A stretch of DNA of 38,947 nucleotides from contig JACRCI010000108.1 in assembly GCA_016219105.1 (NCBI GenBank), forward strand, positions 1-38,947. The letters are read 5' to 3'. Under the pieces are notes generated by a model. It was not told the origin of the DNA. It worked only from the letters and a program-made list of their open reading frames with translations, and ran no database searches. Within the stretch, counting starts at the first letter, position 1. Each line of letters opens with the position of its first letter. Below are positions 8,271-37,379 of this stretch, piece by piece. Position numbers and translations under genes: made by a program. Source of the stretch: Deltaproteobacteria bacterium (lineage in GTDB: Bacteria; Desulfobacterota; GWC2-55-46; DRQE01).

Positions 8271-10031
8271 TTAATACCTTCGCGGACAAAAATCAACTGT
8301 TTTTTTGCCTCTCTCTTCGCTTTCTGAGACTTTAAGCCATTTCCGTATATGTCTTACCGCGTCCTTTTTGCCGCGCACCGTCCCTTCCTCGAAGGCCGAA
8401 CACAGCTCCCTCATTATTCTGCCGACAACCGGCCCCTCGGCCACGTTGAACGTATCCATTATCTCGCCGCCTCCCAGAATGGACTCTGCCCCGCCCCTGG
8501 CGTAGACGTTAAAATAAAACTCCAACATCTCTTTTACCACGGATAGAAGCCTCCTGTCCTCGCTCCCTCTCGTGGCCCTGGCGTCGGCAAGGCCGAGCAT
8601 CAACAAAAAAAGGCCCGTCTCCCCGCCGGCCTGCCAGCCGGCCTTGCCGGCGGCGTTGAAAAAATGCGCCCGTGTCCTGCCGGATGGTTCGGAAAGAGAC
8701 GCGAGAGTGAAAATGCGGTGGTGGTTCCTGACGATTGCGGCCACGGCCCTTATGACCCTGCGGGAGAATTTAAGCCTCCGTAAAATCTTTTTTACGAGGA
8801 TCTCGCCCTCCACGTCATGCCCCATGAAACTCAACCCTGATAGACGGCCCTGCCGGCCAACACTCCGTCCTCGACGGCCAACCAGCCGTCCCTGCCGGTC
8901 CTCGCCTTCCGCCTTCATGGTAAGAGGCTTGCCTATATCGTGGAAAAAGGCCGCGAGTTTGAACGTAACAGTCCTTTCCGCCTGCCGGCCCATGCCGCCT
9001 TCGAAATCGAAAAACCCCTTAAGCCCGCCGTTGAGTTTTTCCGCGCGGCCAACACTCCGTCCTCGACGGCCCGCCAGCCGGCCTTGCCGGCCAGAGGCGA
9101 GATAATCCGCTTCTTTAAGCGTTTTCAGGGAATGCGAGGCGATGTCATAGCTTGCGGCCTGCCAGCCGGCCTCGCCGGACTGCCAACCATCCTCGCCGGA
9201 CTGCCAGTATTTCAATTCCGGGATGATTGTCCCCAAAAGGCCGAGGGTAAAAAGCGTTTTCATGCTTTCCGCGGTTCCGGGATGCGCGAACATCAGGGTC
9301 ATCTCATCCCGTATCCTTTCCATCGCGCTCTTTTTAATGAGGCGGGCTTTTTCCTTAATCCACGCCCTCGTGGATTTTTCCACCTTGAAGGCATACTGCT
9401 GAGACAGCCTTACGGCCCTTAACATCCTCAGGGGGTCTTCGTCAAAGACCATAGCGGACACCGGGCGCAGTATCCGCTTTTTCGCATCTTCAATCCCTTC
9501 GCAGGGGTCTACGAGAGATGGCCTTTCGTTCTCAAAAACGTCCCTTATATCGAGGGCTGTCGCATTGACGGTGAAATCCCTTTCTTTCAAATCCGCGGTT
9601 ATACCGCTTCCCCTTACCGGCGCAATGTCAACCGTGCGTTGGATATCTCCCTTTACCGCTATCCTCCATGTAGAGGATTCCTCATCGAGCAGGAAAAAGC
9701 TTCCGCCGAGGGCTTCGGCGAGCCTCCGGGAAACCTCCCTGACCGTGCCTCCCTTCAGCCTATCGGCCCCGCCCTCCACGCACAGGTCATAGTCAGCACC
9801 CGGGGCTTCTCCGATGAGGAGGTTCCTTAAAACCCCGCCCACAAGATATATCTTTACTCCGGCTGACCGTCGAAGACGGCTGGTTGGCACGGCGAGGGCG
9901 TATATTTCCTTAATTACCGGGTCTTTTCTCAACGCCTTAAAAAGGCCGCCTGAAAAAGAAAAAGCCGACTTTTGCGGTCGGCCATTTCCTTTTCCCCTGA
10001 CGGAGATGCGGGTTTTTCTCTCTTCCATCAT
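8271..10031 (-). CDS. Class II CCA-adding/poly(A) polymerase-type nucleotidyltransferase with HD domain, carrying repeat insertions
   Basis: This is a tRNA nucleotidyltransferase/poly(A) polymerase family enzyme that would add CCA or A residues to RNA 3' ends. The polymerase head shows IYLVGGVLRNLLIGE, the metal-binding DYDL pair, RDFTVNATALDI and DPLRMLRAVRLSQQ. An HD domain (AAFFHDIGKP) is near residue 365. The protein is 586 residues. It is inflated by four in-frame arrays of the 21-bp palindrome, around residues 275-290, 312-325, 375-396 and 460-469, read as WQSGEDG or RQGRLVG heptads. One array lies in the loop directly after the HD motif. The canonical GGxVRD reads GGVLRN here. The start overlaps the TPR gene stop (ATGA). 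CCA versus poly(A) specificity is not decided. Confidence 0.85.
   Translation of the reverse strand: MMEERKTRISVRGKGNGRPQKSAFSFSGGLFKALRKDPVIKEIYALAVPTSRLRRSAGVKIYLVGGVLRNLLIGEAPGADYDLCVEGGADRLKGGTVREVSRRLAEALGGSFFLLDEESSTWRIAVKGDIQRTVDIAPVRGSGITADLKERDFTVNATALDIRDVFENERPSLVDPCEGIEDAKKRILRPVSAMVFDEDPLRMLRAVRLSQQYAFKVEKSTRAWIKEKARLIKKSAMERIRDEMTLMFAHPGTAESMKTLFTLGLLGTIIPELKYWQSGEDGWQSGEAGWQAASYDIASHSLKTLKEADYLASGRQGRLAGRRGRSVGRAEKLNGGLKGFFDFEGGMGRQAERTVTFKLAAFFHDIGKPLTMKAEGEDRQGRLVGRRGRSVGRQGRLSGLSFMGHDVEGEILVKKILRRLKFSRRVIRAVAAIVRNHHRIFTLASLSEPSGRTRAHFFNAAGKAGWQAGGETGLFLLMLGLADARATRGSEDRRLLSVVKEMLEFYFNVYARGGAESILGGGEIMDTFNVAEGPVVGRIMRELCSAFEEGTVRGKKDAVRHIRKWLKVSESEERGKKTVDFCPRRY
8625..8650 (+). 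repeat. 21-bp palindromic repeat in CCA-enzyme gene (array 4)
   Basis: A partial unit GCCGG-CCTGCCAG is followed by CCGGC-CTT-GCCGG. It is read on the minus strand as AGKAGWQAGG near the C-terminal third of the enzyme. Confidence 0.7.
8844..8906 (+). repeat. 21-bp palindromic repeat, three tandem units, in HD region (array 3)
   Basis: Three units start at 8844, 8865 and 8886, exactly 21 bp apart. The middle unit is CCGTC-CTC-GACGG with spacer CCAACCAG. The flanking units have imperfect stems (ACGGC/GCCGG and CCGTC/GCCGG). On the minus strand they encode the heptads RQGRLVG, RRGRSVG and RQGRLSG, inserted between HDIGKP and the following GHD motif. Confidence 0.85.
9049..9092 (+). repeat. 21-bp palindromic repeat, two units, in CCA-enzyme gene (array 2)
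   Basis: Units start at 9057 (CCGTC-CTC-GACGG) and 9078 (CCGGC-CTT-GCCGG). The difference in stem sequence is compensatory (T-A to G-C). They encode RQGRLAG and RRGRSVG. Confidence 0.85.
9158..9207 (+). repeat. 21-bp palindromic repeat, two units, in CCA-enzyme gene (array 1)
   Basis: Units start at 9166 (CCGGC-CTC-GCCGG) and 9187 (CCATC-CTC-GCCGG, decayed), with spacers ACTGCCAA and ACTGCCAG. They encode WQSGEAG and WQSGEDG, a different frame from arrays 2 and 3 of the same gene. Confidence 0.8.
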
Positions 10032-19350: not shown

Positions 19351-22263
19351 CTAACCCCTGGTCTTGTCTTTTATAATGGTCGGGGTTATGAATATCAGCA
19401 ACTCCTTCTGGCTATCGGAGATGGATTTGCCCTTGAATATCCACCCCAATACCGGGATGTCCTTAAAGAACGGGATGCCCCTTTCGCTCCTGTTCGTGTC
19501 CGACACGATGATGCCGCCCATGACCGTGGTCTCTCCGTCCCCGACCAGCACGTTTGTGGTGGCCTCTTTTTTATTTATGCTCGGCTCCCCCCCTGACGTG
19601 CGGAAACTTCCGATCGAGTTTCTGTTTGCCTTTATCTCCATCAGCACGCTCCCGTCGGGCGTTATCTGCGGCTTGACCGTGAGGCTCAAGTTCGCGTCTA
19701 TGAATATCGTCTGGGTGCCGGTGGCCGACGTGGTCGAAAATGGTATGGACTCGCCCTGCGATATCTTGGCCTCCTTGTTGTTCATCGTCACTATCCGCGG
19801 CCTTGAGATGGTCTTTACGAGACCGTCCTGCTCGCCGGCGGATATCCTCAAGTCCAGGAGCATCGGGTTTGCGCCTACCCTGCCAAGGATGAACCCCAAC
19901 GCGCCGAGCGTGCCGGCGGTGCCGGAGGCCGGCAGGTTGACCGCGTAGTTCGTAACGCCAAGGTCGGAGGTGAAACCGGTTTTATCAGTCGCGGCAACCC
20001 CCTGGCCGGTCGCCGGCCCGGTCTGAGTCGCAGGCTGCGGCGCCTGCTGGCCGAAACTTTCCGCGCTTCCGAAAACGCTCGTATGAACCCTGTTGCCGGC
20101 CCCTCTCTGGTCAATGCCCCACTGGATCCCGAGGTCCCTGGCGAAGCTGGATTCGGCCTCGACTATGCGGGCCTCTATGAGCACCTGCGGTATTGGTATG
20201 TCCACCTTCCGTATGTAAAACCTGGCGCCTTCTATGGCTGATTTCACGTCTTTTATGACCAGGGTGTTCGTGGGCTCGTGCACCGTTATGCTGCCGCGGT
20301 CGGAAAGGACGCTTTTAACCTGCGCGGAGAGCGAGGCCGCCTTGTCGTAGTTTATCCTTATGTACTCGGTCTGGAGTTCCTCGAGTTTCTCCGCGGCCTT
20401 CCTGGCCGCAAGGACGGCCTCTTTCTCCTGCCGGATATTGTCAAGCGGGGCCACCCTCACGATGTTGCCTTCCTGTATCTTGTCCAGCCCCCTTACCTTC
20501 AGTATCAGGTCAAACGCCTGGTCCCACGGCACGTCGGTTAGCCTCAGGGTTATCGTGCCGACGACGTCCCCCGAGGCTATGATGTTTAAGTTGCTCACCT
20601 CGGCCAGGAGCTTCAATATGTCGGTGACCTTCGCGTCAACCATGTCTATGCTTATCCTGCGCCCCGTGTATTTCTTCTCCGGCAGCGGTTCCTTGCCACC
20701 CGCGGCAATAACAACGGCGGTCGGCGCGCCTGACTCTTTCTCAGCCTCAACCGCGGACGCTTCCGCGGGCTTCTCCGCGGATTTCTGCGGGGCCTTTACG
20801 GCCATGGCCGCCCGTGCCGGGAAATCCACGTTTATCGCGCCGTTATCCTCGGTCACTTCATAAGACGCCCTCTCCGAGAGCCTTACAAGCACCCGCACCC
20901 TCCAATCCGGCGCCGGGGAGGACTGATATGCACTTATCGTCGAGACCGGCGTGCCGAGGTCCGCGGCATCGAGGGTCATCTTGAGTTCTTCGGGTATGAC
21001 CGCGGACTGGATGTCAACCGTAACGGTCTTCCCGTCCAGAGACTCCTTGACCTGGTAATCCGCATGGGCTGAATTTACTATCGTAAGCCTCGCCGTATCC
21101 TTAAACTTCTTGAAATCCACCTTTTTAACCGTCGTGGACGGAGTGCTGGCCACAACCAGCGCCGCATTCGCCGTTTTTTCATCGGAACGCCGGGCCACGG
21201 CCGGAGAAACCGTCTCAGATGGAGTGCCGGCCGTCGTGGACGGCTGGTTGGCCGTCGTGGACGGAGTGATAGCCGCCTCAGGCGCGGCCTCTTTGGCCTT
21301 TTCAGCCGTTTTCGCCTCCGGCGCCCCGGCCACAACCACCAGGGGCAATGCCTCTTTCTTCTCCGCGCCGAAGATCACTACAAGGGCGCTCCCGGCCTTT
21401 TCCACGTGATAAGGGGGCACGGCCTTCCCGCTCGAGTCCAGTACGAACCTGACCTTGTCGGCGTATGACCCGACCCTTACCCTGTCCACCATGGGGAGGC
21501 CGACCTGGACGTTCCTTTTCTTCATGGCGCTCTTGACGTTCCATACGTCTATGACAACCCGCGCCGGATCGTCGAGGGCAAACGTGTTGTAGTTGCCGAC
21601 CCTGCCGTCGCCCTCGATCCTTACGACGGTGTTCGAGCCTTCCCTCGTTGCCGTGACATCCGTAATCGTCGTGGCAGTGGGACTCGTTTCCTCCCGCTTC
21701 CCTTCCGTTAACGCGGCCTCTTTCTCATCGGCCGGCGTAACGGCATCGGCCGCGGCCCCGGCGCCTTCTTTCGAGAGTTCTATCAGTATGCTTTTATCGC
21801 CGGATTTAATATCGTGCCCGACGCCCGCCTTCAGGCCTATCTCTATCCTCCCTATCGCATCGCCGCCGATGCCGTATGTCGAGGCGAGTATTTCCGTAAT
21901 GAAATCGTTATTGACGGCAATAGGGCTCTTTACGTTCTCAACGCTGGCGCCCGGCATGTCCACTATGACCCTGGGCGGATCGGACAGCCCGAAGGCCGTG
22001 TATTTCAACGGAACGTCCGACTCGATAATGACCGCGTTGCCGGCCCCCACGACGCTTGCGAGAACGACCGGCGAGGCCGGCTGGTTCACCCCGGCCGCCG
22101 GAGCGGGCGTTTCGCTTCCCTTAACCGCGGCCTGCTCCGCCGCGCATCCGGCCGCGAGCAAAAAGACGACCAGGACAAAACTCGCGAGAATGCCCCTTGA
22201 ACGGCCGGCACTTTGCCTGTGACGGCCAGCCAGCCATCCGTCATGGTTTCCTTTTATATTCAT
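19351..22263 (-). CDS. pilQ: Type IV pilus secretin PilQ
   Basis: This is the outer-membrane secretin through which the pilus exits. The 970-residue protein has a secretion signal (ASFVLVVFLLAAGC) and two to three AMIN peptidoglycan-binding domains in the first ~500 residues. An STN/N0 domain follows (RRISIDMVDAKVTDILKLLAEVSNLNIIAS), then N1 (YIRINYDKAASLSAQVK) and the secretin barrel (VLIEARIVEAESSFARDLGIQWG to VLGWIFKGKSISDSQKELLIFITP). The cysteine after LAAG could be a lipid site, though the -3 residue is not canonical. Repeat units encode parts of the n-region of the signal peptide, residues ~57-65 and an inter-AMIN linker (~330-378). A very strong GGAGGGGGG ribosome site precedes the ATG. 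Confidence 0.95.
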   Translation of the reverse strand: MNIKGNHDGWLAGRHRQSAGRSRGILASFVLVVFLLAAGCAAEQAAVKGSETPAPAAGVNQPASPVVLASVVGAGNAVIIESDVPLKYTAFGLSDPPRVIVDMPGASVENVKSPIAVNNDFITEILASTYGIGGDAIGRIEIGLKAGVGHDIKSGDKSILIELSKEGAGAAADAVTPADEKEAALTEGKREETSPTATTITDVTATREGSNTVVRIEGDGRVGNYNTFALDDPARVVIDVWNVKSAMKKRNVQVGLPMVDRVRVGSYADKVRFVLDSSGKAVPPYHVEKAGSALVVIFGAEKKEALPLVVVAGAPEAKTAEKAKEAAPEAAITPSTTANQPSTTAGTPSETVSPAVARRSDEKTANAALVVASTPSTTVKKVDFKKFKDTARLTIVNSAHADYQVKESLDGKTVTVDIQSAVIPEELKMTLDAADLGTPVSTISAYQSSPAPDWRVRVLVRLSERASYEVTEDNGAINVDFPARAAMAVKAPQKSAEKPAEASAVEAEKESGAPTAVVIAAGGKEPLPEKKYTGRRISIDMVDAKVTDILKLLAEVSNLNIIASGDVVGTITLRLTDVPWDQAFDLILKVRGLDKIQEGNIVRVAPLDNIRQEKEAVLAARKAAEKLEELQTEYIRINYDKAASLSAQVKSVLSDRGSITVHEPTNTLVIKDVKSAIEGARFYIRKVDIPIPQVLIEARIVEAESSFARDLGIQWGIDQRGAGNRVHTSVFGSAESFGQQAPQPATQTGPATGQGVAATDKTGFTSDLGVTNYAVNLPASGTAGTLGALGFILGRVGANPMLLDLRISAGEQDGLVKTISRPRIVTMNNKEAKISQGESIPFSTTSATGTQTIFIDANLSLTVKPQITPDGSVLMEIKANRNSIGSFRTSGGEPSINKKEATTNVLVGDGETTVMGGIIVSDTNRSERGIPFFKDIPVLGWIFKGKSISDSQKELLIFITPTIIKDKTRG
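21129..21272 (-). repeat. 21-bp palindromic repeats in pilQ linker (four units)
   Basis: One unit lies at 21129 (CCGTC-GTG-GACGG) and three tandem units at 21210, 21231 and 21252. Spacers include CTGGTTGG and AGTGCCGG. The orientation is opposite to most other copies. It is read as TPSTTAN/QPSTTAG-type heptads between AMIN domains. The gap between the first unit and the array is 81 bp (27 codons), so frame is kept. Confidence 0.85.
22068..22088 (-). repeat. 21-bp palindromic repeat, one unit, in pilQ N-terminal linker
   Basis: CCGGC-GAG-GCCGG followed by CTGGTTCA. It is read as NQPASPV shortly after the signal sequence. Confidence 0.7.
22213..22246 (+). repeat. 21-bp palindromic repeat, two units, in pilQ signal-peptide n-region
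   Basis: TTGCC-TGT-GACGG, spacer CCAGCCAG, then CCATC-CGT-CATGG, 21 bp apart and both slightly decayed. They encode HDGWLAGRHRQSAG, which lengthens the positively charged end of the PilQ signal peptide. Confidence 0.7.
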
Positions 22264-36811: not shown

Positions 36812-36845
36812 CCGGCCACGCCGGCCAACCAGCCGTCTATGACGG
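36812..36845 (+). repeat. 21-bp palindromic repeat, two units, pilD-HEPN gap
   Basis: CCGGC-CAC-GCCGG (36812), spacer CCAACCAG, CCGTC-TAT-GACGG (36833). The array abuts the HEPN stop codon on the pilD side. Confidence 0.9.
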
Positions 36846-37300: not shown

Positions 37301-37379
37301 CCGGCATAGCCGGCCATTTAACAACCGGCCTCGACGGCCCACCAGCCGTCCATGACGGCCTACCAGCCGGCCACGCCGG
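37301..37379 (+). repeat. 21-bp palindromic repeat, four units, HEPN-argJ gap
   Basis: Stems lie at 37301 (CCGGC-ATA-GCCGG), 37325 (CCGGC-CTC-GACGG), 37346 (CCGTC-CAT-GACGG) and 37367 (CCGGC-CAC-GCCGG). The last three are 21 bp apart with spacers CCCACCAG and CCTACCAG. This is the longest array in the window and fills most of the HEPN leader region. Confidence 0.9.

Follow-up and report, generated by a model that had tools for sequence, protein, structure and literature searches.

The gene of an ordinary tRNA nucleotidyltransferase has very probably been entered five times, always in frame, by a short dispersed palindromic repeat that multiplied in the lineage of its host. The gene, for a class II tRNA nucleotidyltransferase/poly(A) polymerase-type protein with an HD domain, occupies positions 8271..10031 on the reverse strand of the stretch of DNA analysed here (the window, 38,947 nt), and it contains five in-frame arrays, that is, nine 21-nt units or 63 amino acids. 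The initial annotation had counted four arrays with at least eight units between 8625 and 9207; these four are confirmed, each running in frame within the gene's open frame, and to them must be added a fifth, at 9861-9888 on the opposite strand, which lies outside that range and had been overlooked.

The 586-aa translation contains the Pfam domains PolyA_pol, PolyA_pol_RNAbd and HD, and its fold is matched best, among PDB entries, by the tRNA processing enzymes 3wfo-3wfs, with CCA-adding enzymes next. The catalytic PolyA_pol head domain (9465..9851, reverse strand) harbours none of the five arrays, and the HD domain match (8706..8966, reverse strand) is split by one of them, A4. As the initial annotation had stated, the polymerase motifs and the open frame are kept: GGxxR (G65-R69), DYD (80-82), RD (151-152) and EDPLR (198-202) are intact, and together with the head domain they correspond to the GGxxR, DxD, RRD-like and EDxxR motifs of the class II enzymes. 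The protein thus has the fold and the catalytic motifs of class II tRNA nucleotidyltransferases (PDB 3wfo-3wfs), and differs from them by the 63 additional repeat-derived residues. Judged by its sequence, it is of the class II tRNA nucleotidyltransferase/poly(A)-polymerase type, and it may be a CCA-, A- or CC-adding enzyme. The window enzyme is the one PolyA_pol homologue detected in its own assembly (94.9% complete); most relatives have a second, usually of ~840-940 aa, which here may be absent from the assembly or lost.

Following the protein from its N-terminus, array A1 (9861..9888, forward strand, opposite to the gene) is a single unit encoding PTSRLRR and adds 7 aa relative to the orthologues. 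A2 (9155..9207, reverse strand) has two units encoding WQSGEDGWQSGEAGWQ and exceeds the orthologue median by 13 aa, orthologues of the family and order having loops 13-14 aa shorter; A3 (9046..9093, reverse strand), with two units encoding GRQGRLAGRRGRSVG, also exceeds the median by 13 aa, the loop being about 14 aa longer than in the orthologues of the family and order and 17 to 19 aa longer than in the closest three. The three units of A4 (8842..8900, reverse strand), encoding RQGRLVGRRGRSVGRQGRLSG, add 21 aa to the HD-domain loop from HDIGKP to GHD, exactly where a three-unit array had been described, and the single unit of A5 (8620..8651, reverse strand) encodes AGKAGWQ and adds 7 aa. The nine units are read in three contexts: one frame is shared by A2 and A5 and a second by A3 and A4, while A1 is read from the opposite strand. 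The heptads RQGRLVG/RRGRSVG and WQSGEAG are present in two frames, as had been noticed for RQGRLVG and WQSGEAG. A further 8-aa insertion (aa 88-95; 9747..9770, reverse strand), absent in the orthologues, has no clear unit match. The variant that comes closest to it, at C114, differs at 5 of 24 nt; at best, the insertion might be a heavily eroded copy of the repeat.

To compare these segments with the rest of the family, homologues were searched and found in 38 of 39 genomes, with a longer paralogue among some of the matches, and the window protein was aligned with 19 orthologues, the excess of each loop being measured between conserved anchors. In this alignment, orthologues of the same family and order contain none of the five arrays and no heptads, and the excess over the orthologue lengths at A1-A5 is close to 7n residues. 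The initial annotation had warned that heptad-rich loops in close orthologues lacking the palindrome would make the segments ancestral protein sequence. Since the orthologues have neither the palindrome nor such loops, the five array segments are, on the evidence of the alignment, insertions and not ancestral sequence.

The core of the enzyme seems little disturbed. The array-bearing protein retains 63 of the 64 residues invariant across the 19 relatives, those of the four polymerase motifs included, and its AlphaFold model has a mean pLDDT of 80.5, with the core mostly above 90. Values below 50 are found at 279-293, 317-332 and 388-398, corresponding to A2, A3 and A4, and local dips to 59 and 64 in the ten-residue blocks with A1 and A5, a low pLDDT at insertions partly reflecting the alignment columns absent there. 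All five arrays are thus predicted to lie in floppy loops of a well-folded core, the structural check that had been suggested. The enzyme appears to have survived five insertions and, we infer, to be active. Core conservation and the structure model support the tolerance of its loops, as initially proposed for this one enzyme; it is, however, no special case, being one of about 214 decorated genes.

The repeat unit measures 21 nt and consists of a 13-nt hairpin (CCGKC-NNN-GMCGG) and an 8-nt linker, successive units being joined head to tail; the profile built from 419 oriented copies reads CCG(T/G)C-RNG-G(A/C)CGG followed by CTGGTTGG. Position 4 of the stem covaries with its partner (T-A 267 and G-C 219 vs T-C 43 and G-A 29; odds ratio 47), and the hairpins strongly favour a loop of exactly 3 nt (558, vs 34-121 at other loop lengths). 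The DNA folding of single arrays is mostly only weakly better than that of shuffles, and the covariation of the stem is the better evidence for a hairpin. Neighbouring hairpins lie 21 nt apart in 73 pairs within genes and in 50 intergenic ones. Two intergenic arrays are in the window, both on the reverse strand, one of two hairpins (36812..36845) and one of three hairpins at 21-nt spacing (37325..37379). Since intergenic arrays share this spacing, the period is intrinsic to the element rather than set by reading frames. The consensus unit is open in all six frames, and the lengths of the arrays cluster near 21n+5. Adjacent units are only modestly more alike than random pairs (5.3% vs 1.8% identical over the whole unit), and therefore recent tandem duplication is not the main source of the arrays. 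A search of Rfam gave no match within the 38,947-nt window.

A profile scan of 1.65 Mb, or 88% of the 1.87-Mb genome, yielded 484 arrays (~762 units) at a threshold of at least 22 bits, whereas an order-3 Markov model predicts ~8; this model took the place of a reversed-sequence control, in which the repeats keep a likeness to the profile. Moreover, a pattern longer than one unit, allowing up to 3 mismatches, matched the genome 230 times, vs 12 for the reversed pattern. A simple hexamer gene finder called 1415 genes (86% coding); of the arrays, 318 lie wholly within these genes, 11 overlap the edge of one and 155 are intergenic, so that about two thirds are genic and ~214 genes (about 15%) carry arrays; per base, intergenic DNA is enriched 2.3-fold. 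No preference for strand was seen, 165 arrays having the same orientation as the gene and 164 the opposite one. Internal arrays decorate, among others, homologues of dnaX, glnE, mnmG, mnmE, mutS2, uvrD, comEC and cheA as well as ftsX-like and penicillin-binding-protein homologues, and within the window five further arrays lie in a PilQ-like secretin gene with AMIN domains (19351..22263, reverse strand). In its load of arrays, the tRNA enzyme ranks with the foremost genes but is not unique. The highest load in the genome is that of the gene at C119:12956-15235, with 11 arrays and ~18 units in a protein of 759 aa, for which Pfam gave no match. Arrays are enriched towards both ends of genes (the first and the last tenth), an enrichment to which mis-called start codons may contribute. 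The use of frames is uneven, with Arg-rich frames rare (p ~2e-18 vs one third); since plain CCGKC shows a similar usage in the array-free parts of genes, this bias is no proof of selection on the peptide, an explanation that we dropped.

Outside its own genome the repeat is hardly seen. The pattern found 230 times at home occurs 0-2 times in each of 38 relatives (named relatives being uncultured Deltaproteobacteria MAGs, for instance GWA2_55_10 and GWB2_55_19); in a comparison with 47 genomes of the order the counts were 275 and 1, and an exact 24-nt pattern was found 135 times in the own genome vs once in the 394 further genomes searched from its phylum, a match judged to be chance. The exact sequence CCGTCCTCGACGGCCNRCCAGCCGKC had no match in 84,980 species genomes, a set from which the host's own records were possibly excluded. 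Seven single matches in viral contigs of 64-73% GC were likewise attributed to chance. On these searches the repeat is lineage-specific and essentially absent from the relatives searched.

As a unit of 21 nt makes a whole number of codons and its consensus is free of stops in six frames, whole-unit insertions keep reading frames open. Each such insertion would leave the gene open, and selection would remove only those that break the fold. The repeat could be a selfish or neutral mobile element without genes of its own, which would be copied in the form of a single-stranded hairpin and would take GGCCGKC-like sites already present as its seeds. Hairpin copying into seeds would fit because the covariation of the stem is strong and the arrays have a short terminal match, their lengths near 21n+5 looking as if whole units had joined a site already matching ~5 nt of the unit. 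In fact, GCCGGC is present at the empty A5 site of the nearest relative, but not in most other relatives. The repeat is thus presumably mobile, with empty sites recognised at the protein level in orthologues from outside the genus. A search for transposases, which covered Y1_Tnp (RAYT), found none in the own assembly (94.9% complete). We tentatively put forward, as a possibility that should be taken with reserve, that this frame-neutral hairpin-plus-linker of 21 nt is an undescribed minimal mobile DNA, spreading without a Y1 transposase by hairpin copying into short GGCCGKC seeds, and that in this way ~15% of the genes of one lineage, core enzymes included, came to be decorated.

An element of REP/REPIN type mobilised by a RAYT, the Y1 tyrosine transposase, is unlikely, even if a small palindrome in hundreds of copies, with stem sub-families of compensated residues, would suit it well. 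The intragenic GTAG and CGTC REPs are palindromes of 20-40 bp with many copies and stem sub-families, and copies within genes occur in repair and RNA enzymes (PMC3733652), all traits common to the 21-nt repeat. However, the search for Y1_Tnp that was negative in the 94.9%-complete assembly was positive in 5 of 14 controls, and no GTAG stands next to the hairpin on either side of the unit profile. REPs/REPINs of the GTAG class are, moreover, mainly extragenic and arranged as inverted doublets, in contrast to the genic majority (318 vs 155 intergenic) and the predominance of head-to-tail tandems at 21-nt spacing observed here. CGTC REPs have a CGTC tag, a stem of 8-9 bp with A-T at the first two positions and a loop of 4-5 nt (PMC3733652); here, instead, the stem is GC-rich and of 5 bp, the loop has 3 nt, and CGTC lies inside the stem, where ~41% of the copies read CGGC.

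A local origin, in which hairpin-assisted slippage and template switching enlarge pre-existing GCCGGC-like seeds with no transposition, would account for the ~5 nt of terminal match beyond 21n, for GCCGGC at the A5 site of the nearest relative and for a frame usage that follows the CCGKC background. Pairing correction, moreover, is known to result from template switching in quasipalindromes. Against it, slippage cannot explain why hundreds of unlinked sites share one 8-nt linker, CTGGTTGG, and neighbouring units resemble each other little more than random pairs do; we regard this origin as improbable. That the units are selected functional sites, such as a protein-binding DNA site, an RNA hairpin or a terminator, could be suggested by the intergenic enrichment and by the strongly retained pairing, and yet it is very unlikely, given that two thirds of the arrays are genic and show no strand preference and that the repeat is essentially absent in the relatives searched. 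Finally, heptad loops that are ancestral, protein-level repeats of the enzyme family with no insertion of DNA are hardly credible: the A3 loop does vary among orthologues (29-38 residues), and the loop at A2 or A4 is longer in single orthologues, but heptads occur in none of the orthologues, the repeat is essentially absent from the relatives, and its 21-nt DNA unit recurs across the genome, within ~214 genes as well as between genes, on either strand and in all six frames, which refutes this reading.

As for known dispersed repeats, the small dispersed repeats (SDRs) of Nostoc are reportedly of ~21-27 nt, proposed to be mobile, sometimes located in coding sequence and accompanied by empty-site evidence. 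They are the nearest in size among known systems; they match the 21-nt repeat in size and dispersal, its own empty sites being at the protein level, and differ from it in being cyanobacterial and of another sequence. The name SDR appears in PMC3116915. Rickettsia palindromic elements (RPEs) are palindromes of 105-146 bp with 12-bp terminal repeats in conserved genes (Ogata et al.; review PMC2229807), and a guanylate kinase decorated by one is translated and active (PMC2229807). The present repeat likewise is a dispersed palindrome fused in frame within conserved protein genes; by contrast, it is a head-to-tail minihairpin of 21 nt, stop-free in six frames, far from the length of an RPE. PARCEL elements are palindromic DNA that encodes a 25-residue amphipathic domain in ORFs without assigned function and spreads horizontally (PMC2996958); there too palindromic DNA gives rise to tandem protein repeats, whereas the 21-nt repeat leaves a 7-residue by-product in ordinary enzymes. 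By analogy, it would work like RPEs and intragenic REPs, while falling under the definition of neither.

Taken over the whole genome, the arrays amount to a natural experiment on in-frame insertion into conserved enzymes, in which orthologues mark the empty sites and the tolerance of loops to insertion is directly measurable by comparing array-bearing genes with them. They also raise the question of how a 21-nt repeat came to occupy hundreds of sites with no Y1 transposase found. Within the repeat itself, the linker variant TTGGTTGA defines a sub-family (unit CCGGCGAGGCCGGTTGGTTGA, 10 copies), and AGTGTTGG and AGTGCCGG recur as further linkers.
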